Origin: Cliona cf. orientalis | Taxonomy: Eukaryota; Porifera; Demospongiae; Clionaida; Clionaidae | DNA: 64,000 bases | Direction of reading: 5' to 3' | Assembly: GCA_963930775.1 (NCBI GenBank) | Contig: OZ005707.1 | Span: 5,580,001-5,644,000 of the forward strand | Part shown: positions 18,604-53,841 of the stretch, piece after piece | How positions within the stretch are numbered: the first letter of the stretch is position 1 | Layout: each line of letters begins with the position of its first letter | The notes under the pieces: generated by a model | What the model was told of the DNA's origin: nothing | Database searches by the model: none | Seen by the model: only the letters and a program-made list of their open reading frames with translations | Translations under genes and position numbers: made by a program

Positions 18604-19219
18604 ACTTAGAATTGTACTACGGTAGATAGTACATACTTGACATAGTTATCGCTGTAAAATTAGTCTTGATATAGTACATGTATAGATAGAGTACAGATAA
18701 CTATGTAGCTATAGCGATAGTTGAAGTACTAGATTTATATTGGATAATACTTTTGTGCCCATTCAGAGTACTGGATCTACTACGATGCGTCAAAATATTT
18801 TAAGTTTCAGATTTAGCCTCAGTATGAATGGTAGTGTGGTGTGTGGTGGACTTCTAACCTAGTTTGGAGGGAATCCTCTGGCTCTGCTGTACTGTAGCTG
18901 ATTGTGGGCCAGGCTCACTCGTTGAAGCTCCACCTCTCTCATCAAGAAGATATTCAGCATCTCATGATCAGCTTCTGTCTAGGGACTTCCTCGAATCACA
19001 GCCATCCACTGATCCAGTAGCAACTGCAGACTGAGAGATTCCTTCTCTATTCAACTCAGCTGAGCTGAGCTGAGTGCCCTCGAGGGCGTGGTCTGGCACG
19101 CGACTCACGGATGTGTACGCATACGCATGCGCAATAGTGAATGTCATTAAATTACGCTCATCGAAGGGAAGAGTGCAGTTGCGTCAAGTCCTGCTAAACT
19201 ACCGACTAGGGAATCGAAG
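18604..19219. other. Intergenic region and likely promoter of unit 3
   Basis: The first ~190 bp are a diverged copy of the 3' flank of units 0 and 1, without the MITE. The rest is unique. A repeated GCTGAGCT motif (~19,058-19,075) and an NRF-1-like palindrome (19,122-19,133) precede the ATG. No TATA box was seen. Confidence 0.5.
19122..19133. promoter_or_regulatory. NRF-1-like palindromic site upstream of unit 3
   Basis: TACGCATGCGCA, 87 bp before the ATG at 19220. It fits the YGCGCAYGCGCR consensus of the conserved animal factor NRF-1 with one mismatch. Similar sites precede units 4 and 6 and the GOLD gene. Confidence 0.4.
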
Positions 19220-22200
19220 ATGGCGAGTAAAATGCGATACAGCGGAATCCAGGAGCTGAAAGAATTCAATTTGGATGACATCCATAGAACTGGAACGACA
19301 CTAGGTCACGGTGCGTTTGGTGTGGTGGAAGAGCTGAAGATGGGTGGTACCCTGTGCGCTGGAAAGAGGCTGCACGCAGAGTTATTGAGCGTACACAACG
19401 AGAAAGAGGGAATCCAGCGACTAGTCAAACGATTCAAGGAAGAGTGTAGGCTCATGTCTAAAATACATCATCCTAGAATTGTCCGATTCTTGGGTCTTTG
19501 CTTCTTTGATGACAGCCCTTATCCCATGCTGGTGATGGAAAAATTTGATCTCAGTTTGGAGACCGTTCTTGAGACACATAAGGACATCCCTTTTCCGTTG
19601 ATCCTACACATACTGCAAGATATTGCCGAAGGCCTCATTTACTTGCATAGCCAGCGACCTCCAATAATTCACCGAGATCTGACAGCAAGAAATGTTCTCA
19701 TTGACCAACGCTCATTCAGAGCAACAATCAGTGACTTAGGAAATTCTAGGCTTTGCTTGGCTGATCGCACGAAATTCACCCAGACTCTCACTCAGGCTCC
19801 AGGAACACTTTCGTACATGTCTCCTGAAGCTCTTGAATGCAAACCAAACTACGATGGAAAGCTTGACATGTTCTCATTTGGTCATCTTGCACTCTTTGCT
19901 GTCATACAAGAGTTTCCAAAAGTTTTAGAGGCACCCACATATTATGAAGATGGCATCATTAAGGGGAGAAGTGAGGTGGAACGACGCGAGAAGTACATCG
20001 CAAAGCTGATAGCAAAGCTCACTAAGGATCACGTGGTGACAAAAATGATATTTCGATGTTTGCATAACTTGCCTGAAAAGAGGTAATGGTTGTCTAATAT
20101 CTATAATGTTATCAGAGAGCCTGTGCAATACCATTAATTTTATTCTAGGCCAACGGCTAAGCAAGTAATGGAGCAGATTGTTAGTATCTCTACAGTTGAA
20201 GATGATGCGGCATACGGACAGGTGAATCTAGTTGAGCTCATCAACAAGGTCGACAAAGGAGAACCAAAAGCAGCATATTATGAAACACCAGTTGGGGCAC
20301 AAGGCGATGGATTCATGAAACGTAGAGTTGAAAGTTTTAAGGTAAATTTATCAAGTATTTAGCCCACATAATAAAATTAATCTGAATTATACCACAGCAT
20401 GGTGCACCAGGGATACTGGAGATTTTTCGAGTGTCTGGGAACAAGCTGTCAAAAAGGCAGACATGGAGGAGTCATATATTTAAAATCAAAGATGGTGCTC
20501 TGAATTACTATAGACAAGAAACGGTACCGTAACTGTACTAGCTACATGGTCACTCATGTTGATCATATATCATAAATTAATCATTGATTTTTTATTAGGA
20601 TAAACCATTTGATTTCCTCAACCTATCATCAATTACTGGTGTGAAAGCATGTCCACCAAAGGAGATTTGGAATAAATCAATGTTTTATTTTGAAGTACAC
20701 TTTTCTGATGTATCTGCAACTAAGGTGTCCCCATGGCTGTTAAGAGCCCACACACAGGTAAATGATACCATTAGTCTACTGTATTATAAATACAATTTGA
20801 ATGCTATATATGTTTCTGAATGATATGCATGCATATGTGTTGCAGGATGATCGAACCTGCTGGATGGAAGCTATTCATGCTGGTTCTTCAGCTGCTTTCA
20901 AACCTGCAGCTCCTGAATCTCAGTATGAGCCAGTCACCCCCATCCCTGAAGGTGAAATGTATTCCTATGCCAGAATGTCTAGGTCTGAGCGTCACCATCA
21001 AGCTCAAGAGAGGAAAGATCTCAAATCCCTCTATGAGGATCCTGATGCTCCTATCACAATTCAAGTTCATGCCCCCAACCAGAGTCAACCAGATGCAAAA
21101 GGCAAGCCTCCACAGAACATACGCCAAGCCAAGAACAAACGTGCTCATTCTAAGTCACCTGTTAATGTCCCATCATCTGCAATCAAACAACTTGTACCAG
21201 AAAACAAAACACCCACCATATCTCCAGCCACTTCACCTCAGCATGTACCACATGCTGAGATACTTTCTGGTGATAAGGGGACGTACGATGATGTTGATGC
21301 CACGGCAGGGTTAGGTGTAGAAGAGTATGAAGACATGAGCCAGCAAAATCCACCACTGCAACCTAAAACACCAGAAAGAAGTGTGACAGTGCCCAGGGAA
21401 TTGTCGGCTCTAGCTGAGATATCCGTTGATGATCTCTCAGGTATGAATCCAAATGAAGCCCAGTTGTGGATGTTGAACCAAATGCAAAAGCTGGTCGAGA
21501 AATTTGCCGGTGTGTATGGAGCGACAGTAGTAGGACCTCTGACGAAAGAAATCAAAAGCAATCGAGGAAAGTTGTTACCAGCGCAGACTGAGGATATTTA
21601 TGAAGATGCACAATCAACACCACCAATTCCACCTCGGACCTACAGCTGCTTGGTTGAAAAAACCCACCAGGAGGAAAGCTATCTCTCTACCAGAAAGATT
21701 GGTCGTCAGTCAAAAACTGTAAACGAAGGGACTAAATCTTCAGCTGAAAGGTCACCACATCATCATTCAAAAGTTGCTTATCCTCCATTACTACAAAAGC
21801 CAGGTAATAGCTAATTATGGATGGTTTTGTTGAGCTGGATTTGTGATACTATCATTTGAGCAGTTGAAAGAAGCAGTCATTCAACGCCCATAGCAGTCAA
21901 GCAAAAGAGAGAGGCAACACCAGCAGAGATGATTAGTACGTACACTACGTAGACTGTTACTAAAATGTGATTATTGTGTTTGTACCTTTAGACACTCTGA
22001 AAGTGCGAAATAAGAGTCTCTCTCCAGAAATATCATCACAGTAATGAACATGCAATAATCATTAAGTACTATGTATAGCTACAATATAATTTTTATAGGC
22101 TACGTACCTACATGCACAACAACTGTAAATTTCATTTTTCTCCTCCTATATAGCCTTGTAACTGGCGATGAAAAACATGGAACTGCAGCCACTACAGCTA

Positions 22201-23852: not shown

Positions 23853-26800
23853 ATGTCACGCAAGCAGCATACTGAAAGTTCAGAAGAGGTGGTTTCCAAT
23901 GCTGATACTGGATATGAAACAAACAGTATTTTCAGCGCATCCAGCTCGTCTGAAATTAGCAAGGTAAGATACACATTATTTAGTAATTCAAAATGATCGT
24001 CACTTTAATTGTTAGAATTGATATGGACCAGCTCATTCCATGATCGTGATACACATATTATGCACACACAGCTAGCGGCTGTGGAGACTAATATTGAAAT
24101 TTCAGGCCACATTATTTCTCAAGTCAGAAAGAAGTACAGCACCATAACTAGTGCTTACAAACGGCAGTGTCCTTGCCTACTAAGGAATTTAGCCAGTTTA
24201 AAATTAGTTGAAGGTTGCCCTAATGATGAAAGGGGCAGCTGCAATGAATTATTAGTTCACCTCCCTTACAGTAGCATTTTTAAGAGAGACCATGATAGAA
24301 AGGATGGTGGCAACAAAAGGATTCTTGTCGTAGGTGAAGCTGGCATTGGTAAAAGTGTTCTTTCTGCTTTGATTGCTGAGGACTGGGCAAATGGGAAGCT
24401 CTTTCAGGAGTTCCTGTTGGCATTTCTACTACCACTAAATCATAGGGGCATAGCCTCAGCTCAAAATCTGCTTGAGCTCTTCAAAAATCTTGAATTTGAT
24501 AGCAAAGTGTGCTCAACCATAGCAACGTACCTGATGACAAATAAGAACAATAATATTCTTATAATTGCTGATGGTTGGGATGCGCTCTGTGAATCTGATA
24601 CCTCAAAAGAATCTTTCTTGAGTCGCCTTCTTTTTGGTGATCTTCTCCCTGGCTCATCACTGACAGTCATTGTAACGTCCAGAACTGCCTCAATTCCTCA
24701 GCAGTCCATCAGCCGATTTATTACAGTTCAAGGATTTAGTGAGGAAACTATTAAGTCCTTCATCCAGTGTGAGTTTAGTAGCAATTCAGAAAAGTTGAGC
24801 AACATCACAAAACAGTTAGAGAGTAATCCCTTAGTGGGAAGCGTGTGTAGTGTACCTCTCAATGTTGCCTTGATTTGCAACTATTGCCAATCTTGTGATG
24901 ATTCGCTTCCCAGCACTATGCCACAATTGTACACTAAGCTTGTTTGGAATCTTGTTCAATTGAAAATTAGTAGCACAAAAGAATACAAAAGCCTATTGAA
25001 ATTGACAAATTATCAGGATCTGCCTAGCAAATTACAGCATTCATTGTCACATCTGTGTCGGTTAGCTTATGAAAGCTGTCAAGTTGATTTTTCTCGATTA
25101 GCAGTATCCAGATTTTTATCTACTGGTCCAGGATTGGAAATATTTGGTCTACTTAAGCTTACAGTCACTGAGAGAAATGAAGAGATGCTCTCCTTTCTCT
25201 GTCCTGCTTTTAGATATTACCTCGCTATTTTGCACCTCATATCACAACCTCAGAGTGTACAGTTGGAAGAAGTAAGAAGTCTACCCCACATTAGTCCAAT
25301 GTTCTACAGATTCTATTTGAGTATGTGTGAAGATGCAAGCTCTGATATTATTTCAGAAGTTGTATCAAAGCTACACCATTCCTGCAAAGACATGTGCCTT
25401 CTTTCATTCGAATCTAATAATGAAATCATCGATCAAGAAGTTATTAGATCACTACGTGCTTCAGATTCTACAATCATGCTACACGCTCAAAATGCTTATG
25501 AGTGTGCAGCTATGGCACACGTACTTGAGAAGATAGAACAACCAAGTAATGTGGAGATCAACTTTCAGACCTGCAAATTAAAGGCAAACCAGATTTTAAA
25601 ATTAGCAAGCATACTCCGTAGTCGATCAAATGTGATACAAATCAAGGGATTGGATCTCAGCGAAAATGGATTGCATGATACAATAGTTTCCGATTTCTTT
25701 AATACTACTGGATCTATTTTTGGTTCATTAGAAAAACTATTTCTTCGTAAGTGCGGGATAGGAGCAAAAGCTCTTAGTGCAATCATTGATGCATTAGTCA
25801 AGTCATCTTGCAAGAGCCTCACTCAATTAGACTTGTCTTTTAACTCTCTTTCAGTTGCTTGTTTAGAGACCCTTCAGGGTTTCATAGATAGAAACAACCT
25901 GCAGAAAATTGAAATCTTAATATTGAAAGGATCGCTTGCTGAAGATATTAATGTGGGTTTCTTGAAACACTTTGCCACTACCCTTTCGACAATGTGTCGA
26001 TATCTACGAAGATTTGATCTTTCTGGCAACAAATTGAGTACACATGAAGATCCAGATCTTAGTACTGTAATTTCTCAGCTCACTACTAACCTTGGTACCA
26101 ACTTTGATTTACGATTGGATGATGACTACATGTCTGAAGTGGAAAAGAATTTTCTCACTATCATGGAGGAGTCTATCAGAACCAAGGGAACAATAGACCA
26201 CACCATTGCTCATGGAGTGATTGTTGGTCCTGGACGATCGGGAAAGGACACTTTAATGAAACGCTTGACAGGAGAAGGACCGCCACAACCTGGTACCACA
26301 TCATCAAGCACGGGAGTTTTAGAGAACATTGTTAAAGTTGAAGTGAAAAAACTATGCACAGTAGCTACTGCCGTGTGTAACCTAAAATGGCAGAGGCTAG
26401 AGTATGATAAAGAAGCGCTTGAACTGATGATGACAACAGCAAAAAACTATTCGCACACGGGCTCTGTACAAGCACCAGTAATAATTAAGTATGTTAATAA
26501 ACTTAAATCAGAAGAAGAAATGGAATCACCATTACAACCTCCTGACCATCATGAAATACCCAAAGTAGCCAGAACTGAAGGAGCAAAAGCAGTTGATGGA
26601 TTGGAAACTACTGATCATGTTTTTGAGAATAAGGACAAGGAATCAAATAATGTCAAACATATAGTTGTCTACCGTGATGATTTAGCGCCAGTGGATATCT
26701 TTAAACAAGCAGTGAAGTTACGACGTATGGATGCACTTCGAGAGCACCTAGAGTCATCATGGTCCCTATACCTCACCAACACGGGAGGACAGATTGAGTT

Positions 26801-29800
26801 TCAGGAACATCTCCCACTTCTAGTTTGTGGTCCTTCTATATTTTTTGTCATATTTCCACTTCATCATGATCTGGATGAGCCATATGAAGTACGATATGAG
26901 TACCCTGATGGCTTTGTGAAAAAATACTCATCCACTCCAACATTAATACAAGAACTGCTCCAAACACTATCCACCATTTATGCCTTGGACTATGCCAGTG
27001 TTCAGATTGGAGATGAAGAGGTACAGCTAAAACCAAAAGTTTTCTTTATTGGCACCCACAAGGATCGCCTACCTGGGCCCGAATCTGCTTGTGAAAAGAA
27101 AATTAAGCAGATTGATAGAAGGCTTCAAAATGAAGTCAAACAAACTTCTCTCTTTCATCAAGGTTCAATTCAATTTGCACACTCTTCAAAGCAGATGATA
27201 TTCACAGTTAATAATCTTTCCAAAGATGATGATGATTTTCAAAAGATACGATCCGCTGTGCAGCAAACTGTGGAGACAAAGTGCTACTCTGAATTTACAG
27301 TTCAATGTCCTTCCTCGTGGCTGATATTTAGTTTAATTCTCCGGGCAAAACATATGTCAAGTCAAGTCCTAGAATTTGAGGATTGCTTCAAGATTGCTCA
27401 GGAGTGTGGTATATCGTCCCGTAAAGAATTAACCACTGCTCTTTCTTTCATTCACTCCAGACTAGGACTGGTGAGGCACTTTAATGTTAAAGAACTTGAT
27501 TCACTTGTAGTGATTGATCCTCAAGTACTATTTGATAAGATCACCGATTTAATAGTTGAGACATTCATCAATGAAGAAATTAACGTTGAGGAAAACGAAA
27601 TTGAGGAATTTCGTGAAAAAGGCATAATTTCTGTAGCAGTAATGAAAAAGATTAGTGAGCGGTCCAATTATAGAGGTGTTAAAATACCATTTACTTGGGT
27701 AACAACACTTCTCAATCACCTTCGAATAGCTGCTCTGTTTAGGGATTATCAAGGAGAGAAATATTTCTTCCCATCTGCACTATGCCATGTCCCTGAGGCT
27801 GATGATTCATCTTCAGACTCATCATCATTAGATTCTTTTGAGCCTCAAGCCAATCTAGCATCAGCTCTACTCATAGCATTCGAAACTGGATTCTGTCCCA
27901 GAGGGATGGCAGGAGCTCTAGTTAAGTGCCTAATGACCAATGAAATGAAGTCAAATAGAAAATGGGAGCTGCTTCCCAAACGGATATTCAGAAATGAAGT
28001 TTCTTTCCACATTGAAGCGTGTGGGGACATTACCATTAAGGTGCTACCTACTCACCTAGAAATTACTATTGATTCTGATGATGGGACTGATTGTGAAGAA
28101 GCATATACGCAGATTTCTAGGAGTATGAATATTGCAACCACTTTATACAAAAAGTGTGAGTTTTTCTATACATTCTATTGCACACTGGATAAATGCAAAA
28201 AGAATCCCCACCCTGCGAGGATTGAATGGAAACATAACGTTCCTTCAAAATTGAGGTGCAAAATTTTGAACAAAAGTGGGAGATTACCGAAAGGATACAA
28301 GTTATGGAACCTACAGAAAAAAGGTGTGTCTAGCTAATAATGGGCTTTTCATGATCAGAAAGTGCATTGTTAGTTGTTATTATTATTATTAGATATGAGA
28401 TCAAAGAGTAATACTGAAATCCATTATGAAGACCTTGGCCCGATAGCTGATTCCATAGTTGAGTGGAAGGGCCCTATCGCTGATAAACTCAAACTAACAC
28501 CAAGTGATGTTGCAGATATCGAGACAAAGCACCCACAGAAATTAAAGCTGCAATCGTAAGTCTTAGAGTGTGTATGATTATTATAATATTACTGATCTAA
28601 TTGTTCATTTAATTAAGAATTTGATGCTTGTATAATTCCCACAGGAGAGAAGCATTGTATACGTGGAAAAAAAGAAATGGTTCCAAGGCAACTTACAGGG
28701 AATTGGCAGAGGTATTTGATCGAGCAGGCTGTAAACACTATGCAGATGAAGTAAGGAGAATTTCCAACATGAGTGACAGTGAATCAGATGATTCCAGTAT
28801 TAACGGAGAGGAGCAACCAGAAACATACCCTATGCCACATAAAGGATTTTATCAGGATCTAGAACCTGGCCCAGCAAAATCCCAGATATATGTGATGGTG
28901 GAAGAAGAAAATCTACCTGAAGGTAAGATTTGGAAGTATCTGTGCCTCACTTAGATGTAGCTATAGGCTATACCTATAATTAACTATATTGTGAATAAAA
29001 TTAAATCATAGGAGTAAATGCTGGGGAAGTTTGCAGTGAGAAGTTATTGGATTCACAAAATGCAACTTTGGTACCACAACTCATCCAAAGTAAAAGTGAT
29101 TCCAAAGATGATCAAGATCATACTGGGGAACAACACCCACATAAGGTAGCTATGTCACTGTGATATCAATATTCCATATATAAATGCTTAAGCATTCCTC
29201 TTAAACGGCTTTCCATATAAGCTAGAGTCAATCTATATGCATACCACAATAGCAAACATGCAAGATTATACGGTTTAATATTAAATTTTTTGTAGCAGGA
29301 TACATCAAATGAGCATAGGCTCTCAAGTGCAACACAACTGCAATTCAGTGCTATCCCAGAGCTGAAAGAATTCATTCTGGACGACATCCATAGAACTGGG
29401 AAAATTTTAGGTCATGGTGCGTTTGGTGTGGTGGAAGAGCTAAAGATGGGTGGTACCCTGTGCGCTGGAAAAAGGCTGCATCCGGAGCTACTGAACATCT
29501 GTAATGAGCAAAAGGGAACCCAACGAATTATCAAACGATTTATAGAGGAGTGTAGTCTTATGTCCAAATTGCGTCATCCCAGAATTGTCCAATTTCTGGG
29601 CCTCTGCTTCTTTGATGACAGCCCCTATCCCATGCTAGTGATGGAAAAAGTCAGCTTCAGCTTGGAGACCATTCTTGAGACGCAAAAAAACATAGCTTTT
29701 TCGTTGATTCTCCATATACTGCAAGATATTACTGAAGGGCTAATTTACTTGCATAGCCAGCGACCTCCAATAATTCATCGAGATCTGACTGCAAGAAATG

Positions 29801-31505
29801 TTCTCATTGACAAACGCTCATTCAGAGCAACAATCAGTGACTTAGGAAATTCTAGGCTTAATTTGACTGATCACACAAGATTCACTCACACTCTCACTCG
29901 TGGTCCAGGAACACTATCATACATGTCTCCTGAAGCTCTCGAATACAAACCTAATTATGATACCAAGCTTGATATGTTCTCATTTGGCCACCTGGCACTC
30001 TTTGCTGTCATACAAGAGTTTCCCAAAGATTTAAAGGCACCCACATATTTTGAAGATGGTATCATTAAGGGGAGAAGTGAGGTGGAACGACGTCAAAAAT
30101 ACATGGCAAAATTGAATGCCAAGCTCACAAAGGATCATGTAGTGACAAAAATGATATGTCAGTGTTTGCATAACTTGCCAAAAAAGAGGTAGCTACTTTA
30201 ATACAGAAGCTTTATTAAGTGCACAATCTTGCATCTACACCATTGCTACAGACCGACAGCAATACAAGTAATGGAGCAAATTGCTAGTGTCTCTACTGTT
30301 GAAGATGGTGCAACATACAGGCAGGTGAATCTAGTTGAGCTCATCAACAAAGTCGATAAAGGAGAACCTTATGAAATGGCAGCTGGGACACAAGATGATC
30401 GTGATCAGAGCATGCAACGTAGGATTGAGAGCTTAAAGGTAAGTATTACCTCACATGCATATAGCTATTATGGTATTGAATTGTAACCATAGCAAGGTGC
30501 ACCAGGAATTTTGGACATTCAAGTATCCAGAATATCAAATAGGTGGTCTTGGCAGAGTTATGTATTTAGAATCAAAGATGGTGCTCTGAATTACTATAGG
30601 CAAGAAACGGTACAGTACTGTGGTACATTAATCAAACCATACATTAATTAAGTTTATATAGACGGACAAACCATATGGTTCCATCAACCTGTCGTCAATT
30701 GCTGGCATGACAGTATGTCCACCAAAGGAGACTTGGAATATATCAATGTATTATTTTGAAATACACGTTTACGATGTTAAGGTGTCCCCATGGCTGTTAA
30801 GAGCCCACACACAGGTAAAAATTAATAATATCAGTCCAAGATTTAGTCCATTTAGCCATTATTGTATCATTGCAGGATGATCGAACCTGCTGGATGGAAG
30901 CCATTTCTGCCGCTTTCAAATCAGCAGCTCCTGAATCTCAGTATGAGCCAGTCACTCCTATCCCAAAAGATGAAATGTATTCCTATCCAAAAGATGAAAT
31001 GTATTCCTATGCCATAATATCTAGGTCTGAGCCTTACCATCAAGCTCAAAAGAGGAAACGTCTCAGATCCCTCTATGAGGGCCCAGAGGCTCCTCAAGCT
31101 CATGTTTCTAGCAAGAGTCAACCAATTGCAAAAAGTAAATCCCAACTTTACTTAGGGCACTCACACCAAGCCAAGAGCAGACATCCACGCCCATTGCCCT
31201 TAATAATTGATCATGAAGACATTGTGCCTCTACACTCAGTACCTGCGCGTGCTGAGACAGTTTCTCATGATGAGGAGCCAATTTATGATGATGTTGCTGA
31301 TTCAACAGCAGATGATGACGAGGAGCCAATTATTTATGATGACATTGCTGATTCAACAGCAGGTGATGATGAGGAGCCAATTTATGATGACATTGCTGAT
31401 TCAACAACAGGTATGGAAGAATATGATACAGCAAGTGGGACACAAGGTGGTCAGAGCATGAAACATAGGAGAGAGCTTCGAGGTAAAATCTATGAAGCCT
31501 GTTAA
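23853..31505 (+). CDS. Unit 4: NACHT-LRR-Roc-COR-Death-kinase-PH fusion protein, ~2,304 aa
   Basis: Exons: 23853-23963, 24072-28323, 28393-28555, 28645-28922, 29012-29145, 29299-30188, 30252-30438, 30493-30609, 30662-30814, 30876-31505. Phases match at every junction and no internal stop occurs. Start: the ATG opens a 37-codon Ser/Glu-rich exon that joins in frame at the CACACAG acceptor. NACHT: GEAGIGKS at 125-132 and a Walker B IIADGWDAL. LRRs (~560-705): LDLSENGL, LDLSFNSL, FDLSGNKL. Roc-like GTPase: GPGRSGKDT ~757, NTGGQ ~940, THKD ~1032, with an unusually long stretch between the first two. COR-like part ends ~1400. Death domain 1463-1550, split by an intron. Kinase ~1670-1945: GHGAFG, AGK, HRDLTARN, DLG. 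PH ~2005-2105 ending WMEAI. The tail has repeated YDD motifs. A donor (CGAG|GTAAAA) near 31,482 may allow a different 3' end. Likely a cytosolic sensor-kinase; the domain calls are strong, the function is inference. Confidence 0.85.
31255..31415 (+). repeat. In-frame tandem repeat in the unit 4 tail
   Basis: Three copies of a ~48-57 bp unit encode DEEPIYDDVADSTA-type segments, each with a Tyr in an acidic context. Unit 6 has a single copy. A separate 24-bp direct repeat encoding PKDEMYSY lies at about 30,965-31,010 in unit 4 only. Confidence 0.8.
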
Positions 31506-31509
31506 TAAT

Positions 31510-32900
31510 TATGACCATCTATAGCATGGCTAGCCAGGGTTTCTTAACATTCTTTGAATTCCGGAAGCAAAAGCCATTCAGCAATAAGGAAGGCTTGAAG
31601 GAGATACTTATTTAGGATCAAGGATGGTACTCTGAATTGCTATGGACGGGGAATGGTATATAGTTATTATAGTACTGTGGTCAACCATTGACCAAAGCAT
31701 ACAGTAATTATTAGGCTCTATGTGAAAAAATTGGGAGAAATTGGTCATGGTGGATTCTGTAGTTGTTGATTGAAAGCAGTTGACTGTAGATTGTTGTGTT
31801 GTAACAGTTGATGTTATTGATTTAGTTGCTTGTGTATCTCTTTGCTGGTTATAATAGAGATATTTAAGTAATCATGATGAAAATAAGACTTTCTTTTATG
31901 TACACTGCAGGCCAATCAAATTAATTAGAAAAGTGCTCACAATTAACAGATTGTCTATGATAGTCAAGACTGTCAAGAAGTGTGAGGGGAGGCAGAGTTT
32001 CCAAAAGGAAATGAGTGTAATATCGAAACTAATCCAAAATTAGTATTCAGTTTTATTGTAGCTATACCATAAGCCACTATAGATAACCTGACAGACCAAG
32101 AAGTCAAACTGACCATGCACCCATACCCTGTCAGTCTCTTTGGGTACATCATCAAGTTAGGCTCATGTATGTTATATCGAAGTCTTATATCTGCATGATG
32201 TGGTTAGCATACATATCAAACAAACTTATACAGTATGTATTGTTTATACAGATGAACCCTGTTTGGTGCTTAAATTTTTACCTCATGATCACAGATAGAT
32301 CTCAAAATCTTTCTGATCGTAACTTTGACGATTGCACTATCAGCTGAATGGTATGATACTAGGTTTACAAGCAAAACAAGCAGACTGAGTGAGACAGCTG
32401 GTCCATGAGTACGTATACATGCCGGATATTGCTACCAGGATGAGAAGCATAATATTATATCTTGTGTATGCTGCCTACCTCTTTGACTGTAAGCTTAATA
32501 TGCTTACTCTTTCAGTGATATAATTTTGATTTTTCACAAGATCTAGTAGCTATTGATCGAAGTCAGTGATTTCGAGAGATATACCAAGACTTATAGTATA
32601 TACTGGGTGGCTATGATATCTACCAGTCTGAGATCAAAGTTGATCACGAGACAATTCAATAGATAGTATCAGAGAGTATTCTGAGTTAATAAGAATTCTG
32701 ATGCTTGGATTTTGGGTGTTGCCATGAGGGAATGAACAGCCATACAAATTAACGGTTGAGCAATATGGAAGTTGTGTATGAAAGATGCTTGAAGTATCCA
32801 GGCCACTCACAGTGATCAGAACATAATGAAAATGTGTTGACAGCTTGAGTTATCAGAGCAGCCAAGTTATTGCTATGCTACTTGTGGTCGTGGGCATGCA
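31510..32900 (+). pseudogene. Decayed PH fragment and tyrosine-kinase remnant downstream of unit 4
   Basis: Segments match array exons in the expected order but with many frame breaks. A PH-exon-like piece is at ~31,556-31,666. A piece like the exon ending EIGHG is at ~31,714-31,752. A kinase N-lobe piece is at ~31,909-32,035 (bases encoding the FQKEM stretch are clear), a hinge piece (cf. LEFLPH) at ~32,252-32,300, a catalytic-helix piece at ~32,375-32,450 and C-lobe pieces to ~32,890. Compared with units 3 and 7 this is the missing 3' half of a dual-kinase gene. The same decayed sequence follows unit 6, so most decay predates the segmental duplication. Confidence 0.72.
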
Positions 32901-33580
32901 CGGATATTAATTATGATATGTTGCTTAGATAATAATGGATACTCAGTGAACTATAACATTCTACAGACTACTATCTATACTATCTTATTTATTCTGAATT
33001 ATAATTCTATCAATTATAATAGTAATAATGTGTCCATGGATTTCCATTATCTTCTTCATTAGCTACAGTATAGCTAACAATTAATTTTTGAATAGAGGTT
33101 TGTATACATATATACTTGATTGATTAGAAGGGCTGTATACATATAAGGTCCCGAGCAAACATAACTTGCATTGAGTGAGGATTCTATAAACCCTAAGGGC
33201 TTCTAAATCATAATTATAGTATAGAAACATGTCTAACCTGCATGATATTGTGCACAATATTAGGACCTGGTATAATACGTAATAAGTATTATTGTTGACA
33301 CACGAATCATGCAATGAAACACCACCCCATATCCTCAGTAGTGTAACGGTGCATGTGGTAAAATATAGTCAAATTATAGTGTCCCATGCAATGGAGTCTG
33401 AGACCGACCCTCATAAACATAATACTAATACATACATATTCACCGCCCTTAGGCTACAGGAAATAATTATAATCATAGTATTAATTATTGTAAACAGGCA
33501 GTAACTGTGCATAAAAGGCTAGCCATGCACTAATCAACTCACGCTGCAGTGTGCACAACATAATTATCCACAGTTCAGTG
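32901..33580. other. Intergenic region and promoter of unit 5
   Basis: AT-rich, no gene recognised. Nearly identical to 48,165-48,844 upstream of unit 7. A TATA-like CATAAAAGG lies at 33,510-33,518, about 63 bp before the ATG. Confidence 0.5.
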
Positions 33581-36500
33581 ATGGCCAGCAGAATAGCACA
33601 AATGCAGTACACGGATATCCCAGAGCCAGGGCCGGGGGAGCCGCTCCGGCTGCTCAGGCCATGGCCTGAGCAATATTTGGTCTGATTTTCGTAGCTATGT
33701 GCTAGTTGGGCGTTCCTGCAATGCTGAAACTATGAACCACGCCTACCGCGTGTTCTGCGCAAGCGCTTAAGCGCACGCTCGAGCAACCACATGCATGCGC
33801 TATATGCACGTGCAACTACCATTATAATAGCATCTGTAGTCCTGGTCTTAGCGACCAGGCATCATCCATGAACTGAGTTATAATACAGCTGAAAGTGTCC
33901 ATCTCAGAAATATAATTCTGGGGGAAGGAGATACTAGGCCCTCCCCCCCCCCCTTGTACCCCTTGCACATCAATACCATGTGCTGCCACTTTAGCCTCAC
34001 CATACTTTTCTACCTTCCCCCGGCCCTGAGAGCTGAAAGACTATGTTCTACCCAATGTTCATAAAACTGGAACAAGCTTAGGTCGGGGTGCATTTGGAAC
34101 AGTAGAAGAATTGGCTGTTGGAAGGACGCTCTGTGCTGGAAAGAAATTGCATGCAGCATTGCTGGATGCACACAATGAAGGAATCCAACGCACCATCAAG
34201 CGATTTATTACCGAATGCAAGCTCATGTCCAAGCTACGCCACCCCAGAATTGTCCAGTTTATGGGCCTCTGCTTCTTTGATGACAGCCCCTATCCCATGC
34301 TGGTAATGGAAAAGCTGGATGTTGATTTGCAGACCCTACTTGAAACGAGCAATAACATTCCATTTGTTGCAGTACTCAACATATTGCAGGATATTGCAGA
34401 AGGCCTCGTTCATATGCACGGTCAAAGTCCTCCTATTATTCATCGTGATTTAACAGCCAGAAATGTTCTCATCATTCAAGGCTCATTGAGAGCCAAAATT
34501 GGTGATTTGGGGAATGCTCTTTGCATGAGAGATCTGGTAACAGTCACCAATACCCTCAGCAGGGTACCAGGAACTCTTATGTATATGCCACCTGAAGCAT
34601 TCGAGTATTCCATAAGGTATAATAGCATGCTCGATATGTTCTCTTTCGGTCATCTGGCACTGTTTGCTATGATCCAAGAGTTTCCAAGGGAAATACTTGC
34701 TCCAAATTTTTATGATGAAAAGGGAGAACTCAGGGCACGAAATGAGGTGGGAAGACGTGGAAAGTATATTGACAAGCTGATTGCTAAACTCACAAAGGAT
34801 CATGTGGTGACAAAGATGATCATTCAGTGTTTACATAATGTACCAGAGAGAAGGTATTAATAGCAGTAGTATAATACTATGTCCTTTTTATCTGTGTCAG
34901 TATACAAGTTTATCCATGACTGAATATAGGTTGACAGCAGCAAAGGCTATGGAGCAAATTAGTAAAGTCTGCAAAGAAGAAGACTGTGGTGCACAGTATG
35001 AGACAAAGAAGTATCCTCCTGATCTTCTAAATAAAGTTGGTTTCCTGGAGTCAAGTGCAAAAATTGATGCAGGCCAACATTTAAAGCAGCGGATTCAAGA
35101 ATTCAAGGTAACTATAAACAAACTTTTGATAGAATTAATCAATCTATTAATTGATACCAATACAGCAAGGGGTTCCAGGATTGCTTGATATTTATCGCTC
35201 CTATGGAAGACTATCTCGGAGAGAGGGATGGAGGCTACAGGCATTCCAAATTAAAGATGGAGCTCTGCAATACTGTAAACAAGACATGGTATAACTATGA
35301 CATGCTATGTAACAGTTACTAGGAAATTAAGCTTCAATTATTCATTCAGATGGATAGACCTTACGATACACTTGAGTTATCATCAATTGTTAGTGTGAAA
35401 GCCATCCAACCCAAAAAGGATTGGAATGAATCCAGATTTTATTTTGAAGTACACTTCTCTGGAGCTAGAGGATCTCCATGGCTGTTAAGAACATACACAC
35501 AAGTAATAGTTCTAACATGAGCTATTTCAGTGTCTATTATTATGCCCTTGATTGGTTTTTAGGATGATCGTACATGTTGGATGGAAGCCATTTTCCCTAC
35601 TACAGGATTACCAATTATTGAAGAAGTTCATCAGTATGAGGTGGTCACTCCTCCAGAAAGTGAAGCCGGGATGTATACATATGTACAGGTGCATGGGCAT
35701 CAGCCTCAGGGCGTAAAAGAGCTTAAATATCTTTATGAAGATGCCTCATCTCTAGCACCAACACCTCAGCAAGAACGGCATCGGAAATCTCCAGATTTAG
35801 CCAGGAAAGACTATGGGAAGCCAACAAAACCACAAAAGGCAGCGAAAGTTTTTGTCCGTGAAGATCAGTTATTGCAAGAAACAACAGACACACACCATCA
35901 TGACATTGTCGGAACAACTGGTGCAGATAGCTATGTAGTTATGCAACCAAAATTACCGCTAAGCCCTCGAAGAAGTGTAACTGTGCCTCAAGAACTATCA
36001 GGCTTATCTGAGTTATCCATTGACGATATATCTGAGCTCGACCAAAGCAAAGCCCAGTTGTGGCTACTGAATCAAATGCAGAAACTTGTACAGAAACAAA
36101 TAGGTGTTCACTCCAGTGAGGAGGGAAAGCAACCTTCATTTGATGAAGCAACAGAAAACCAAGGAATACACGGGTTGCAAATGCATATTAATCAGCACCC
36201 CAATTTGCCACATGCAAGATCCATAGAAGCTCATGATGCACAAGTTCCACCACTCCCTCCTCGACCTCATCAGCATCAGCAATGGTCAAGGGAAAAGTAT
36301 AGAGATGAACATACAAACTTAGCTCTTCAAAAATCACCAGTTCATCAAATGGGTTTCGGTATTCACCCTCAGGCTGACCTACATGGAGCAAGACTTAAGC
36401 CACAGCCATCAGGTAAGTGCAATAATGAGTTATTATTAGTATAAATGAGCTTCCCAGAATATTTTATGATAATGCCGGTATAATATTATTATTATTCATA

Positions 36501-38488: not shown

Positions 38489-41400
38489 ATGTCACGCAAG
38501 CAGCACACTGAAAGTTCAGAAGAGGTGGTTTCCAATGCTGATACTGGATATGAAACAAGCATTTTCAGTGCATCCAGCTCGTCTGAAATAAGCAAGGTAA
38601 GATATACATTTCAAAATTGCTAGAATTGATATTGAACCAGCTCATTCTGTGATCGTGACACACATATGCACACACAGCAAGCGGCTGTGGAGACTAATAT
38701 TGAAATTCCAGGCCACATTATCTCTCAAGTCAGAAAGAAGTACAGCACCATAACTAGTGCTTACAAACGGCAATGTCCTTGCCTACTAAGGAATATAGCC
38801 AGCTTAGAATTAGTTGAAGGTTGCCCTAATGATGAAAGGGGCAGCTGCAATGGATTATTTGTTCACCTCCCTTACAGTAGCATTTTTAAGAGAGACTATG
38901 ATGATAGAAAGGATGGTGGCAGCAAAAGGATTCTTGTCATAGGTGAAGCTGGTATTGGTAAAAGTGTTCTTTCTGCTTTGATTGCTGAAGACTGGGCAAA
39001 TGGGAAGCTCTTTCAGGAGTTCCTTTTGGCATTTCTACTACCACTCAATCATAGGGGCGTTGCTTCAGCTCAAAATCTGCTTGAGCTCTTCAAAAATCTC
39101 GAATTTGACAGCAAAATATGCTCGACCATAGCAACGTACCTTATGGGAAATAGGAAGGATAATATTCTTATTATAGCTGATGGTTGGGATGAGCTCTATG
39201 AATCTGATAGCTCAAAAGAATCTTTCTTGAGTCGCCTCCTTTTTGGTGATCTTCTCCCTGGCTTATCACTGACAGTCATTGTAATGTCCAGAACTGCCTC
39301 AATTCCTCAGCAGTCCATCAGCCGATTTATTACAGTTCAAGGATTTAGTGAGGAAACTGTTAAGTCCTACATCCAGTGTGAGTTTAGTAGCAATTCAGAA
39401 AAGTTGACAAGTGTCACAAAACAGTTAGAGAGTAATCCCTTAGTTGGAAGCGTGTGTAGTGTACCTCTCAATGTTGCCTTGATTTGCAACTATTGCCAAT
39501 CTTGTGATGATTCACTTCCCAGCACTATGCCAGAATTGTATACTAAGCTTGCTTGGAATCTTGTTCAATTGAAAATTAGTAGCACAAAAGAATACAAAAG
39601 CCTATTAAAATTGACAAATTATCATGATCTGCCTAGTAAATTACAGCATTCATTGTCACATTTGTGTCGGTTAGCTTATGAAAACTGCCAAGCTGATTTA
39701 TCTCCAGCTGCAGTATCCAGGTTTTTATCCACTGATTCAGAATTGGAAACATTTGGTCTGCTTAAGCCTACAGTCACTGAGAGAAATGAAGAGATGCTCT
39801 CCTTTCTCTGTCCTGCTTTTAGATATTACCTCGCTATTTTGCACCTCATATCACACCCTCAGAGTGTACAATTGGAAGAAGTAAAAAATCTGCCCCACAT
39901 TAGTCCAATGTTCTACAGATTCTACTTGAGTATGTGTGAAGATGCAAGCTCTGATATTATTTCAGAAGTTGTATCAAAGCTACACCATTCCTGCAAAGAC
40001 ATGTGCCTTCTTTCATTCGAATCTAATAATAAAATCATCGATCAAGAAGTTATTAGATCACTACTTGCTTCAGATTCTACAATCATGCTACATGCTCAAA
40101 ATGCTTATGAGTGTGCAGCTATGGCACATGTACTTGAGAAGATAGAACAACCAAGTAATGTGGAGATCAATTTTCAGACCTGTAAATTGAAAGGAAACCA
40201 GATTTTAAAATTAGCAAGCATACTTCGTAGTCAATCAAATGTGATACAAATCAAGGGATTTGATCTCAGCAATAATGGATTGCATGATACAATAGTTTCC
40301 AATTTCTTCAGTACTACTGGATCTATTTTTGGCTCATTAGAAAAGCTATTTCTTCGTAGGTGTGGGATAGGAGCAAAAGCTCTTAGAGCAATGATTGATG
40401 CATTAGTCAAGTCATCTTGCAAGAGCCTCACTCAATTAGACTTGTCTTTTAACTTGCTTTCAGTTGCTTGTTTAGAGACCCTTCAGGGTTTCATAGATAG
40501 AAACAACCTGCAGAAAATTGAAATCTTAATATTGAAAGGATCGCTTGCTGAAGATATTAATGTGGATTTCTTGAAACACTTTGCCACTACCCTTTCGACA
40601 AAGTGTCGATATCTACGAAGATTTGATCTTTCTGGCAATAAATTGAATACACATGAAGATCCAGATCTTAGTACTGTAATTTCTCAGCTCACTACTAACC
40701 TTGGTACCAACTTTGATTTACGATTGGATGATGACTACATGTCTGAAGTGGAAAAGAATTTTCTCACTATCATGGAAGAGTCTATCAGAACCAAGGGAAC
40801 AATAGACCACACCATTGCTCATGGAGTGATTGTTGGTCCTGGACGATCGGGAAAGGACACTTTAATGAAACGCTTGACAGGAGAAGGACCGCCAGAACCT
40901 GGCACCATATCATCAAGCACAGGAGTGTTAGAGAACATTGTTAAAGTTGAAGTGAAAAAACTATGCACAGTAGCTACTGCCGTGTGTAACCTAAAATGGC
41001 AGAGGCTAGAGTATGATAAAGAAGCGCTTGAACTGATGATGACAACAGCAAAAAACTATTCGCACACGGGCTCTGTACAAGCACCAGTAATAATTAAGTA
41101 TGTTAATAAACTTAAATCAGAAGAAGAAATGGAATCAGCATTACAATCTCCTGACCATCATGAAATATCCAAAGTAGCCAAAATTGAAGGAGCAAAAGCA
41201 ATTGATGAATTGGAAAGTATTGATCATGTTTTTGAGAATGAGGACAAGGAATCAAATAATATCAAACATGTAGTTGTTTACCGCGATGATTTAGCACCAG
41301 TGGACATCTTTAAACAAGCAGTGAAGTTACGACGTATGGATGCACTTCGTGAGCACCTAGAGTCATCATGGTCCCTATACCTCACCAACACCGGAGGACA

Positions 41401-44400
41401 GATTGAGTTTCAGGAACATCTCCCACTTCTAGTTTGTGGTCCTTCTATATTTTTTGTCATATTTCCACTTCATCATGATCTGGATGAGCCATATGAAGTA
41501 CGGTATGAGTACCCTGATGGCTTTGTGAAAAAATATTCATCAACTCCAACATTAATACAAGAACTGCTCCAAACACTGTCCACCATTTATGCCTTGGACT
41601 ATGCCAGTGTTCAGATTGGAGATGAAGAGGTACAGCTAAAACCGAAAGTTTTCTTTGTTGGCACCCACAAGGATCGCCTACCAGGGCCTGAATCTGCTTA
41701 TGAAAAGAAAATTAAGCAGATTGATAGAAGGCTTCAAAATGAAACATTTCTCTTTCATCAAGGTTCAATTCAATTTGCACACTCATCAAAGCAGATGATA
41801 TTCACAGTTAATAATCTTTCCAAAGATGATGATGATTTTCAAAAGATACGATCCGCTGTGCAGCAAACTGTGGAGAAAAAGTGCTACTCTGAATTTACAG
41901 TTCAATGTCCTTCCTCGTGGCTGATATTTAGTTTAATTCTCCGGGCAAAACATATGTCAAGTCAAGTCCTAGAATTTGAGGATTGCTTTAAGATTGCTCA
42001 GGAGTGTGGTATATCGTCCCGTAAAGAATTAACCACTGCTCTTTCTTTCATTCACTCCAGACTAGGATTGGTGAGACACTTTAATGTTAAAGAGCTTGAT
42101 TCACTTGTAGTGATTGATCCTCAAGTACTATTTGATAAGATCACCGATTTAATAGTTGAAACATTCATCAATGAAGAAATTAACGTTGAGGAAAATGAAA
42201 TTGAAGAATTTCGTGAAAAGGGAATAATTTCTGTAGCAGTAATGAAAAAGATTAGTGAGCGGTCCAATTATAGAGGTGTTAAAATACCATTTACTTGGGT
42301 AACAACACTTCTCAATCACCTTCGAATAGCTGCTCTGTTTAGGGATTATCAAGGAGAGAAATATTTCTTCCCATCTGCACTATGCCATGTCCCTGAGGCT
42401 GATGATTCATCTTCAGACTCATCATCATTAGATTCTTTTGAGCCTCAAGCCAATCTAGCATCAGCACTACTCATAGCATTCAAAACTGGATTCTGTCCCA
42501 GAGGGATGGCAGGAGCTCTAGTTAAGTGCCTAATGACCAATGAAATGAAGTCAAACAGAAAATGGGAGCTGCTTCCCAAACGGATATTCAGAAATGAAGT
42601 TTCTTTCCACATTGAAGCGTGTGGGGACATTACCATTAAGGTGTTACCTACTCACCTAGAAATTACTATTGATTCTGATGATGGGGCTGATTGTGAAGAA
42701 GCATACACACAGATTTCTAAGAGTATGAATATCGCAACCACTTTATACAAAAAATGTGAGTTTTTCTATACATTCTATTGCACAGTGGATAAGTGCAAGA
42801 AGAATCCCCACCCTGCGAGGATCGAATGGAGTCATAATGTTCCTTCACAATTATGGTGCAAAATTTTGAACAAAAGTGGGAAATTACCGAAAGGATACAA
42901 GTTATGGAACCTACAGAAAAAAGGTGCGTCTAGCTAATAATAAGCTTTTCATGATCAGAAAGTGCATTAAGATTAGCTATTATTATTGTTGTTATTATTA
43001 GAAAATTTAATTGATATGAGATCAAAGAGCAATACTGAAATTCATTATGAAGATCTTGGCCCGATAGCTGATTCCATAGTTGAGTGGAAGGGCCCCATTG
43101 CTGATAAACTCAAACTAACACCAAGTGATGTTGCAGATATCGAGATAAAGCACCCACAGAAATTAAAGCTACAATCGTAAGAATGTATATGATACAAGTA
43201 TAAAAAATAATTGAATAAAATTTAAGGATGAAGTAGGGATGGCAATGCCAAAAAGTATACAAACAAGATTTGTAGGGATAAGAGATAATCACAACCACTA
43301 TACATCCCTACGCTTACTTTTCTCGATTATTACAGACCTATTGATGTTGACTTGTTCAAGGCATGCTATCCTTGGAGTGTTCTTGACTTGCATGTGGAAG
43401 AAATTCATGTTCTCCCTGTCAGTCAGTTTTTAATATTTATGATTCCCATGATACTCAAAAAGCAAGCGTAGGGATGTATAGTGGTTGTGATTATCTCTTA
43501 TCCCTACAAATCTTGTTTGTATACTTTTTGGCATTGCCATCCCTACTTCATCTTTAAATTTTATTCAATTATTTTTTATACTTGTTTCTGCTCTTTTTTT
43601 ATTGCAAATACAGTAAGTAAAATATAATATATAGAAGATGGGGGGGGGGGGGGGGGTGAGTTAGAGTGGATTTATACATAAACTAAGATGAGAGGTCAAG
43701 GCAGTCTTGAGTTAGCCCTGGTAATGAAAAAGAAAGAAAGAAAGAAAGAAGAAAGAAAGATTGACAAATGGCCTATTTTTTGAACATCTGGTTCTAGCAT
43801 GTACAATTGTTTTGATGAATGATCTTGGTCTTGTTAGATGCACAATTTGCTGGAGATTCTGATTTTGACACTTAGAAATTTCAAAAAGTTACCTGTTTTG
43901 AGATATTTGGGTATTTGTAATGTATTGTGCATATGGAGTGTCCGGGCCATCCCTACTTATAGAGTCTACCGACTCTATGATAATATACGAATATAACTGA
44001 TCTAGATTGTGCATTTAATTAAGGATCATAATTTTGATGTTTGCATCACAGGAGAGAAGCATTGTATACGTGGAAAATAAGAAATGGTTCCAAGGCAACT
44101 TACAGGAAATTGGCAGAGGTATTTGATCAAGCAGGCTGTAAACTCTATGCAGATGAAGTAAGGAGAATTTCCAACATGAGTGATAGTGAATCAGATGATT
44201 CCAGTATTAATGGAGAGGAGCAACCAGAAACATACCCTACACCACATAATGGATTTTGTCAGGATCTAGAACCTGGCCCAGCAAAATCCCAGATATATGT
44301 GATGGTGGAAGAAGAAAATCTACCTGAAGGTATATAAGATTTGGAAGTATACTGTGCCTCACTTAGATGTAGCTACAAGCTATAGCTATAATTATATGGT

Positions 44401-46867
44401 AGATTGTGAATAAAATTAAATCATAGGAGTAAATGTTGGGGGAGTTTGCAGTGAGAAGTTATTCAATTCACAAAATGCAACTTTGGTACCACAACTCATC
44501 CCAAGTAAAAGTGATTCCAAAGATGATCAAGATCATACTGGGGAACAACACCCACTTAAGGTATGTCACTGTGATATCAGTATTCTGTGTATAGAAGCTT
44601 AAGCATTCCTCTTAAATGGTTTTCTAAGCTAGAGTCAATCTACCACAATAGCAAACAAGATTAGCTATAGCTACCATTAAATTTTAATATTTTTGTAGCA
44701 GGATACTTCAAATGAGCATAGTCTTTCAAATACAACACAACTGCAATTCAGTGATATCCCAGAGCTGAAAGAATTCATTCTGGACGACATCCATAGAACT
44801 GGGACAACTTTAGGTCACGGTGCGTTTGGTGTGGTGGAAGAGCTGAAGATGGGTGGGACCCTGTGCGCTGGAAAGAGGCTGCATCCAGAACTACTGAACA
44901 TCTGCAATGAGCCAGAGGGAAACCAGCGAACAATTAAGCGATTTATACAAGAGTGTAGTCTTATGTCCAAAATGCGTCATCCCAGAATTGTCCAATTTCT
45001 AGGCCTCTGCTTCTTTGATGACAGCCTCTATCCCATGCTAGTGATGGAAAAAGTCAGCTTCAGCTTGGAGACTGTTCTTGAGACACACAAGGACATCCCT
45101 TTTCCGTTGATCCTAAACATTCTGCAAGATATTGCCGAAGGTCTCATTTACTTGCATAGCCAGCGACCTCCGATAACTCACCGAGATCTGACAGCAAGAA
45201 ATGTTCTCATTGACCAACGCTCATTCAGAGCTAAGATCAGTGACTTAGGAAATTCTAGGTTCTGCTTGGCTGATCATACAAGATTCACTATCACTCTTAC
45301 TCAGGCTCCAAGAACAATTTCATACATGCCTCCTGAAGCTTTTGTATACAAACCAAGCTATGATACTAAGCTTGATATGTTCTCATTTGGCCACCTGGCA
45401 CTCTTTGCTGTCCTACAAGAGTTTCCCAAAGATTTAGAGGCAGCCGCATATTATGAAGATGGCAACATTAAGTTGAGAAATGAAGTGGAACGACGTCAAA
45501 AATACATTGCAAAATTAAATGCCAAGCTCACAAAGGATCATGTGGTGACAAAAATGATATATCGGTGTTTGCATAACTTTCCAAAAAAGAGGTAGCTACT
45601 TTAATAAGTATGCACAATCTCACATCTATACCATATTACTATAGACCGACAGCAATACGAGTAATGGGGCAAATTGCTAGTATCTCTACAGTTGAAGATG
45701 GTGCAGCATACAGGCAGGTGAATCTGATTGATAAAGGAGAGCCTTGTGAAATGGCAGCTGGGACACAAAATGATCGTGATCAGAGCATGCAACGTAGGAT
45801 TGAGAGCTTAAAGGTAATTTAGTATTACCTTACATACAAATAGCTATTACCGGTATTGAATTGTAACCATAGCAAGGTGCACCAGGGATTTTGGACATTC
45901 TTCAAGTATCCAGACTATCAAATAGGTGGTCTTGGCAGAGTTTCGTGTTTAGAATCAAAGATGGTGCTCTGAATTACTATAGGCAAGAAAAGGTACAGTA
46001 TACTGTGGTACATTAATCAAACCATATATTACTCAAGTTTATATATTATATAGATGGACAAACCACATGGTTCCATCAATCTATCATCAATTGCTGGCAT
46101 GACAGCATGTCCACCGAAGGAAACTTGGAATATATCAATGTATTATTTTGAAATATACATTTATGATACTAAGGTGTCCCCATGGCTGTTAAGAACCCAC
46201 ACACAGGTAAATAATGTCAGTCCAAGATTTAGTAATTATTGTATCATTGCAGGATGATAGAACCTGCTGGATGGAAGCCATTTATGCTGGTTCTTCAGCT
46301 GCTTTCAAGCCTGCAGCTCCTGAATCTCAGTATGAGCCAGACACTCCTGTCCATTCCTATGCCGTAATATCTAGGTCTGACCTTGCTCAAAAGAGGAAAC
46401 ATCTTAGATCCCGCTATGAGGGTCCAGAGATTCCTCAAGCTCATGTCTCTAGCCAGAATAAACTAAATGCAAAAAGTAAATCCCGACTTCACTTACGGCA
46501 CTCACACCAAGTCAAGAGCAGACGTCCACGCCCATTGCCCATAATAATTGATCATGAAGACATTGTGCCTCTACACTTAGTACATGCTGAGACAGTTTCT
46601 CATGATGAGGAGCCATTAAATTTGTATGATGACGTTGCTGATTCATTAGCAGGTATGGAAGAATATGATACAGCAAATGGGACACAAGGTGATCAGAACA
46701 TGAAACATAGGAGAGAGCTTCGAGGTAAAATCTATGAAACCTGTAAATTATTATTTACAATCTTGACCATCTATAGCATGGCTTACCAGGATTTCTTGAA
46801 TTCTATGGCATTCCGGAAGCAAAAGCCATTCAGCAATAAGGAAGGCTTGGAGGAGATACTTATTTAA
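38489..46867 (+). CDS. Unit 6: second NACHT-LRR-Roc-COR-Death-kinase-PH fusion, ~2,295 aa
   Basis: Exons: 38489-38596, 38678-42923, 43002-43176, 44052-44329, 44427-44560, 44702-45591, 45645-45813, 45873-45992, 46054-46206, 46253-46867. They total 6,888 nt, in frame. Domain order equals unit 4: NACHT with GEAGIGKS and the more canonical Walker B IIADGWDEL, LRRs, Roc-like GTPase (GPGRSGKDT, NTGGQ, THKD), COR-like region, split Death domain, kinase (GHGAFG, AGK, THRDLTARN, DLG), PH with WMEAI. Differences from unit 4 cluster in the NACHT region and in the kinase-PH part. The kinase shares blocks with unit 3 instead (ETHKDIPFPLIL). The tail has one YDDVADS segment instead of three, and the open frame runs past the unit 4 stop. 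A ~790-bp repeat lies in the intron that splits the Death domain. Two open copies argue that this architecture is a real gene and not an annotation artefact. Confidence 0.85.
43193..43981. mobile_element. ~790-bp composite repeat in the Death-domain intron of unit 6
   Basis: The left half (43,196-43,590) is a fold-back with ~110-bp inverted arms; landmarks are TATACATCCCTACGC and its complement. The right half includes a poly-G run (~43,641-43,656), an AGAAA microsatellite (~43,727-43,760) and a palindromic tip GAGTCTACCGACTC. The intron of unit 4 at the same place is only 89 bp, so insertion postdates the duplication. A short ATGAT-like repeat flanks both ends. Relatives lie in the unit 2 intron in the opposite orientation. 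Confidence 0.75.
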
Positions 46868-53009: not shown

Positions 53010-53101
53010 TTATCAGGAATTTGTGTGAAAACCCTAGTATGATATTAATAGTAATCGCATTGTATATAGACTCAATAAATTTTGATGTTTAGCTCCAAAT
53101 A

Positions 53102-53803: not shown

Positions 53804-53829
53804 TAAACAAATTTTGGCGGGCACCATTC

Positions 53830-53841
53830 TGCGCATGCGTA
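53830..53841. promoter_or_regulatory. NRF-1-like palindromic site upstream of the GOLD gene
   Basis: TGCGCATGCGTA, 123 bp before the ATG at 53,964. Same motif class as upstream of units 3, 4 and 6. Confidence 0.4.

Follow-up and report, generated by a model that had tools for sequence, protein, structure and literature searches.

A predicted sponge gene that joins an NLR-type sensor, a Roc-COR tandem, a Death domain, a kinase and a PH domain in one reading frame

Whether an animal can carry an NLR-type sensor and a signalling kinase in one and the same polypeptide is the question raised by a locus in the demosponge Cliona cf. orientalis. It lies in a stretch of 64,000 nucleotides (nt) on the forward strand of contig OZ005707.1 (assembly GCA_963930775.1, positions 5,580,001 to 5,644,000), here called the window, whose numbering is used below. 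A sequence-only reading had proposed that ten exons join in phase into one frame of about 2,304 amino acids (aa) with NACHT, LRR, Roc-COR, Death, kinase and PH domains. The parts of such a fusion (NLR, Roc-COR, Death and kinase-PH) are known mostly from separate proteins. What appears to be new is the C-terminal kinase on an NLR with a ROCO-type chassis, in what we regard as a well-supported predicted fusion gene that is present in two copies.

The gene model and its tandem copy

Rebuilt from the sequence, the gene has ten exons at 23,853-31,505 and nine GT-AG introns with matching phases, and the joined frame gives exactly 2,304 aa with one stop, in full agreement with the proposal. Pfam searches of the joined protein recovered the claimed domains in the claimed order, with Roc-COR recognised by its predicted fold. 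It is very probable, judging from the sequence, that an NLR sensor, a LRRK-like Roc-COR, a Death domain, an intact kinase and a PH domain are joined in one predicted chain. The features are as follows (L011-L015 are NLR paralogues):

23853..23963, + strand: exon 1, with ATG, 37 aa; homologues in L011-L015 at 62-68% identity
24072..28323, + strand: exon 2, with N-terminal region, NACHT, LRR, Roc and COR; open frame 24009-28337
24318..24782, + strand: NACHT domain, residues 120-274; Pfam PF05729, 69.8 bits
25401..26195, + strand: LRR region, about residues 481-745 (approximate borders); Pfam LRR_1 and LRR_6
26163..28322, + strand: predicted Roc-COR tandem, residues 735-1454; COR-A 31.0 bits and predicted fold; G1 GPGRSGKD, G3 NTGGQ, G4 THKD
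28393..28555, + strand: exon 3, first part of the Death domain
28645..28922, + strand: exon 4, rest of Death and linker; in the joined protein Death is residues 1482-1548 (Pfam PF00531, 32.6 bits)
29012..29145, + strand: exon 5, linker; its phase-0 donor is the predicted fusion point; homologues in seven of eight NLR paralogues examined
29146..29298, + strand: intron 5, which separates the kinase from the NLR-Roc-COR-Death part; 153 bp (141 bp in copy 2)
29299..30188, + strand: exon 6, the bulk of the kinase domain, which spans residues 1679-1952 (Pkinase, 119.4 bits); upstream of the glycine loop there is no in-frame ATG
30252..30438, + strand: exon 7, kinase end and linker
30493..30609, + strand: exon 8, first part of the PH domain; Pfam PF00169, 42.0 bits, residues 2018-2108
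30662..30814, + strand: exon 9, middle of the PH domain
30876..31505, + strand: exon 10, with the last part of PH, a tail that has three YDD[VI] repeats, and the stop
38489..46867, + strand: second complete fused copy, ten exons, 2,295 aa; found by tblastn of the model against the window, then built as a full model

The locus had been described as a single gene, and this must be corrected, as the second intact copy at 38,489-46,867 makes it a tandem pair. The second copy matches the first in its ten exons, their phases and the GT-AG borders, and likewise has one stop. The two differ by a synonymous divergence (dS) of 0.122 and a nonsynonymous divergence (dN) of 0.041, giving a dN/dS of 0.33 (bootstrap 0.28-0.40). 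From exon 1 to exon 10 the lengths differ by 3, 6, 12, 0, 0, 0, 18, 3, 0 and 15 nt, each of them divisible by three; among the intron gaps 6 of 22 are. Exons 5 and 6 are equally long in both copies (134/134 and 890/890 nt) with no gaps at all, and the intron between them has four gaps (4, 4, 4 and 8 bp). We used the exon lengths and not the 12 in-frame gaps of the protein alignment, because a protein alignment builds the frame in. An assembly artefact was ruled out, as two copies at a dS of about 0.12 keep all phases, and so was a pseudogene, with a single terminal stop per copy and the dN/dS of 0.33; chance joining of exons was rejected on the two-copy comparison.

By region, dN/dS is 0.34 for NACHT, 0.33 for the LRRs, 0.28 for Roc, 0.11 for COR, 0.17 for Death, 0.29 (0.19-0.42) for the kinase, 0.22 for PH and 2.09 (1.02-7.37) for the tail. 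The kinase part is by this measure under purifying selection. The tail of the first copy has three EEPIYDD-type repeats (31260-31410), two of which are missing from the second.

A family of NLR-Roc-COR-Death genes

The NACHT domain stands well defined against its Pfam cut-off of 26.7 bits, and in a sequence search of the PDB this part matched chains of NLRP1, NLRP5 and NLRP3. The LRRs lie C-terminal to it, with few repeats recognised (LRR_1 at 21.5 bits, cut-off 20.6). No Pfam family was listed for residues 1-114; an N-terminal effector domain (CARD, PYD or Death) is not required for the NLRX class of sponge NLRs.

For the Roc-COR part the COR-A match (E 2.7e-7) falls under the curated Pfam cut-off of 35.3 bits, Roc has no Pfam match on the joined protein, the locus is not among the places listed by a genome-wide Roc search, and the single match of a PDB sequence search, at an E of 1.2, means nothing. 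An AlphaFold2 model of residues 735-1454, made from an alignment of 23 family sequences and of middling quality (predicted local distance difference test 60, predicted template modelling score 0.64), has as its best structural neighbours C. tepidum Roco, LRRK1, LRRK2 and M. barkeri Roco2. The COR-A match below the cut-off and the fold match of the model together identify a predicted Roc-COR tandem of the ROCO type. Seven long open reading frames (ORFs; 1,635-1,709 aa) with Roc matches at G000:C16:402207-952990 apparently belong to another Roc family.

In Ras-like GTPases the Mg2+ ligands at G1 and G3 are the Ser/Thr after the P-loop Lys and an Asp. Here the residue after the Lys is Asp or Asn, and that of G3 is Asn, in all 23 aligned rows; in a wider set of 139 sequences, mostly preselected for the motif PGRSGK, Asp or Asn follows the Lys in 138 and NTGGQ is found in 136. 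The canonical GTPase residues of ROCO proteins are absent. Because these residues occupy two normally Mg-binding positions, the Roc is perhaps not an active GTPase, and it may be a weak or inactive one with a structural role. Of the ROCO module first proposed, the Roc-COR fold stands, and the word GTPase should give way to Roc fold, the residues being noncanonical throughout the family.

Much of the predicted protein is not special to the window. A search with the exon-2 protein gave 31 long matches on ten contigs, including the window pair and some with internal stops, and a further two NLR loci were found in pieces; only the best candidates were scored, and the count is to be read as at least 31. 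Death-exon homologues lie behind 29 of the 30 loci examined (L009-L038, the window's two among them; none behind L036). COR and Death are in one open frame at three of these 29 (L019, L026 and L029), and likewise in the database ORFs P0006 and P0009. The COR-Death splice sites were not used as evidence: 9 of 29 loci have a strict consensus or one frame, and 28 of 29 have some phase-compatible pair (L024 has no such pair), as would often arise by chance. Sequence comparison makes NACHT-LRR-Roc-COR-Death the ordinary architecture of the family, and exons 1-4 are for that reason not misjoined. The claim that a single protein uniquely holds all the domains therefore has to be narrowed, as this large family shares everything up to Death and it is the addition of kinase-PH that is special to the locus. 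Among database proteins P0002 (80% over residues 740-1450) is the closest to the NLR part; it is sister to the window pair, so the locus has a relative elsewhere.

Exon 5 also belongs to the family, with homologues in all of the eight paralogues examined except L015. A phase-0 K|GT donor after it was read by eye in L011, L012, L013, L014, L017 and L018, and in L016 the exon reads through into a tail rich in Q and A; from these donors the family seems to have further, differing 3' exons. Behind other NLR paralogues (L043:128-1186 and L046) we saw a Q/A-rich tail and what is apparently another 3' exon; ORFs with Kelch, SH2 and Death (L041:3-494, L045:298-516 and L039:1930-2220) also lie behind such paralogues and are maybe neighbouring genes.

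The kinase part and its junction with exon 5

By sequence, the kinase has the residues of an active kinase in both copies, namely the glycine loop, Lys, Glu, HRD, D-L-G (the DLG form) and PE motifs. Among the best 60 of 627 PDB matches it is scattered over TKL and tyrosine kinases (EGFR, TNNI3K, CTR1, ITK, IRAK4 and RIPK1), and no CaMK types are found there. Related kinase exons surround the window as an array on its contig (C19), and one of them was taken as the outgroup for the fusion test:

19151..21811, + strand: separate gene for a kinase, with an ATG of its own and a second part that resembles PH; kinase exon 82% identical; Pfam kinase

The PH part of this gene is seen by similarity only (51%), with no Pfam PH match on its last ORF.

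That a kinase is an ordinary feature of the NLR family was considered and rejected: by eye, no other NLR locus has any of the 132 listed kinase matches (E up to 1e-40) in the 10 kb behind it, and as 132 of 1,111 candidates were scored, weaker kinases could be missed. The kinase-PH query likewise had no match in the 2.9-3.95 kb downstream of eight NLR paralogues. As the rest forms a large genomic family, kinase-PH is, on sequence comparison, the sole part special to this locus.

In both fused kinase exons (2/2) the frame has no ATG from the stop at the acceptor up to the glycine loop. Of the 11 best matches after the fused pair, five in the window and six outside, 10 have an in-frame Met at most 17 residues ahead of the kinase, and the exception, at 34,006, is disrupted. 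The exon-6 acceptor is kept in both copies. A start-less exon, a conserved acceptor and purifying selection make it the simplest account that the kinase is translated as a continuation of exon 5. A kinase with its own start, which the sequence-only reading had named as the sign of two adjacent genes, is made less likely by the start codon missing from both copies, and the single-polypeptide reading agrees with the tests run, all of them comparative. Two separate kinase copies look disrupted, at 34006 (stop before ELKDY) and at 9153 (stop just before the glycine loop).

If there were two adjacent genes, an NLR-Roc-COR-Death gene would end within or behind either exon 4 or exon 5, followed by a separate (Death-)kinase-PH gene with an internal promoter that starts, for instance, from a Met in exon 3. 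Such a Met is present near the exon-3 start in both copies (MRSKS), both have AATAAA in intron 4, and the NLR and kinase families occur separately elsewhere. The kinase exon however lacks its own start, several relatives have COR and Death in a single open frame, intron 2 is just 69-78 bp, and the ends that exon 5 would reach by read-through differ between the copies (HPHKVAMSL and stop versus HPLKVCHCDISILCIEA and stop), so we hold two genes to be improbable. The distance of only about 150 bp between exons 5 and 6 could also suit an operon, in which trans-splicing of a spliced leader to the acceptor of exon 6 would divide a single primary transcript and the kinase would get its start codon from the leader or its junction, and a passage in PMC10282587 reports a trans-spliced leader in the glass sponge Aphrocallistes vastus. 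Against this, 10 of the 11 free kinase paralogues have their own ATG, and the exon-5 donor and exon-6 acceptor are both in phase 0 and kept in both copies, which leaves the operon very improbable indeed.

Relatives of the kinase in other assemblies bear on the age of the fusion. The kinase tree holds 31 sequences, including 24 of 120 listed database ORFs. The database ORFs of the two fused window kinases (P0145 and P0173) begin inside the kinase, and so do P0157, P0163 and P0169 from other assemblies, which are 84-89% identical to the first copy and group with the two fused kinases (printed support 70); the other 21 database ORFs in the tree begin upstream of the kinase. In a search of the database for whole fusions P0077 has Roc, COR and kinase, without NACHT. 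It is conceivable, though we would not bet on it, that the fusion is old and shared between species, with the start-less kinases marking orthologous fusions, a Roc that is no longer a normal GTPase, and the phase-0 intron after exon 5 as a port for varied C-terminal modules and so a combinatorial output; the modules would be kinase-PH in the window, the Q/A-rich tail in L016 and apparently another exon in L014.

Several points weigh against the fusion, or against its wider sharing. The printed support of the start-less clade is no higher than 70, and its labels may have been shifted by re-rooting. The contigs that carry P0157, P0163 and P0169 are short (1,165-2,501 bp), and the ORF caller does not place starts mechanically, since in P0173 it passes over an upstream in-frame Met; for both reasons the starts of these three prove little, and judged by sequence they are a weak lead. 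The NACHT and kinase families occur together in none of 83 listed proteins, nor in the best 120 of 253, a negative that says little because most entries are single-exon ORFs. P0002 is on a contig of 554,817 bp, and none of the 120 listed kinases is on a contig of that size. In the gene itself, the junction linker has a dN/dS of 0.94 (0.29-3.63), with no clear constraint, and the copies are of one origin, so that the conserved junction counts as one history and not two. The exon-5 donor of copy 1 (AAG|GTAGCT) is further from the consensus than that of copy 2 (AAG|GTATGT), reading through exon 5 could lead to a stop after a further 15 nt, and because intron 4 has an AATAAA in each copy (28,994 and 44,409) a transcript could end before the kinase.

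The tandem units behind the fused genes (31506-38488 and 46868-54000) are 95-100% identical from about 1 to 6.5 kb, and the kinase-PH parts of the fused genes 86-96% per 150 columns, a pattern suggestive of recent duplication or gene conversion. The kinase parts (29299-30188 and 44702-45591) have a dS of 0.26, above that of the NLR parts (0.08-0.13), and this excess may point to conversion from kinases elsewhere in the array. Tyrosine-kinase-like ORFs at 1713, 8309, 18175, 23097, 52584 and 37768 are interleaved with the kinase-PH genes as a second array; five of the six have DLAARN, and 37768 is a later kinase part.

Known systems and a possible mechanism

Animal NLR sensors are thought to signal through separate kinases or proteases. 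NOD1 and NOD2 are such sensors upstream of a kinase of the TKL group, RIPK2, driven by oligomerisation, and they are separate from it and bound through CARD-CARD contact, whereas here a single predicted chain has Roc-COR and Death placed between the sensor and the kinase. LRRK1 and LRRK2 have the same order of LRR, Roc, COR and kinase and a matching Roc-COR fold, but the predicted protein has NACHT in front, Death and a linker of about 130 residues between COR and kinase, PH after the kinase, and different G1 and G3 residues; the LRRK arrangement, with the kinase directly behind COR and then WD40, is not found. DAPK1 has kinase, Roc-COR and Death in one protein, with an N-terminal kinase, ankyrin repeats and neither NACHT nor LRR; here the kinase is at residues 1679-1952 and Pfam finds no ankyrin match. 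Nor is it a RIPK, with N-terminal kinase and C-terminal Death or CARD, since Death precedes the kinase. Plant NLRs with integrated kinases carry NB-ARC where this protein has NACHT, and Roc-COR and Death are not known to occur in them. RPG5 and TSN1 are likewise NLRs fused to a kinase domain, according to the part of PMC5067614 covered.

The bona fide NLRs of the sponge Dysidea avara (NLRX class) are also NACHT-LRR proteins in large clustered families, and a figure legend lists COR among the domain abbreviations; a C-terminal kinase or PH on an NLR is not described in the text portions of that article covered (PMC12909245). The order NACHT-LRR-Roc-COR-Death-kinase-PH was not described in the literature searched, which had most subscription journals outside it and includes parts of PMC12909245, PMC6208332 and PMC5067614.

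We consider a fused gene with the kinase as its attached output to be the best overall explanation, with a probability of roughly 70%; that the kinase does act as output is, taken by itself, about an even chance. A gene of the NACHT-LRR-Roc-COR-Death family would have come to sit upstream of a kinase-PH gene within the kinase array, and exon 5, the last family-typical exon, with its phase-0 donor, would now be spliced to a kinase exon whose start codon was lost. The fused gene would be present as the tandem pair, with a product of about 2,300 aa in a single chain. The LRR/NACHT part would sense a signal and oligomerise, Roc-COR and Death may help to hold or arrange the assembly, the kinases thus brought close could phosphorylate one another and downstream targets, and the PH domain and the tail with YDD repeats may place the protein or dock partners. 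One molecule would then do what NOD2 and RIPK2 do as two proteins. Transcription, the splice from exon 5 to exon 6, assembly, kinase output and also the bypass of a separately recruited kinase, as proposed at the outset, are what we infer from the sequence.

The main mechanistic rival, because the fused kinase so closely resembles its free neighbours, is an integrated decoy: the fusion would be real, and kinase-PH would be a bait that mimics neighbour kinases attacked by a pathogen, with tampering as the trigger of the NLR, a role that has been proposed for kinase-carrying plant NLRs, barley RPG5 among them. The kinase exon is 82% identical to that of a free neighbour and lies within the array of free kinases, and the plant NLRs into which a kinase domain is integrated are a precedent (PMC5067614, in part). 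The catalytic motifs are however kept and the kinase has a dN/dS of 0.29, yet an integrated kinase may also be intact, and we regard the decoy as unlikely.

If the fused gene works as an attached output, the whole relay of sensor, adaptor and kinase would be found in one molecule of an early-branching animal, an animal counterpart to the plant NLRs with integrated kinases. It would also give a clean test of whether kinase proximity is sufficient for NLR signalling, with the free neighbour kinases and the NLR paralogues that lack a kinase already at hand as controls. That the canonical Roc residues are changed throughout the family bears, finally, on what roles a Roc-COR may have beyond GTP hydrolysis.

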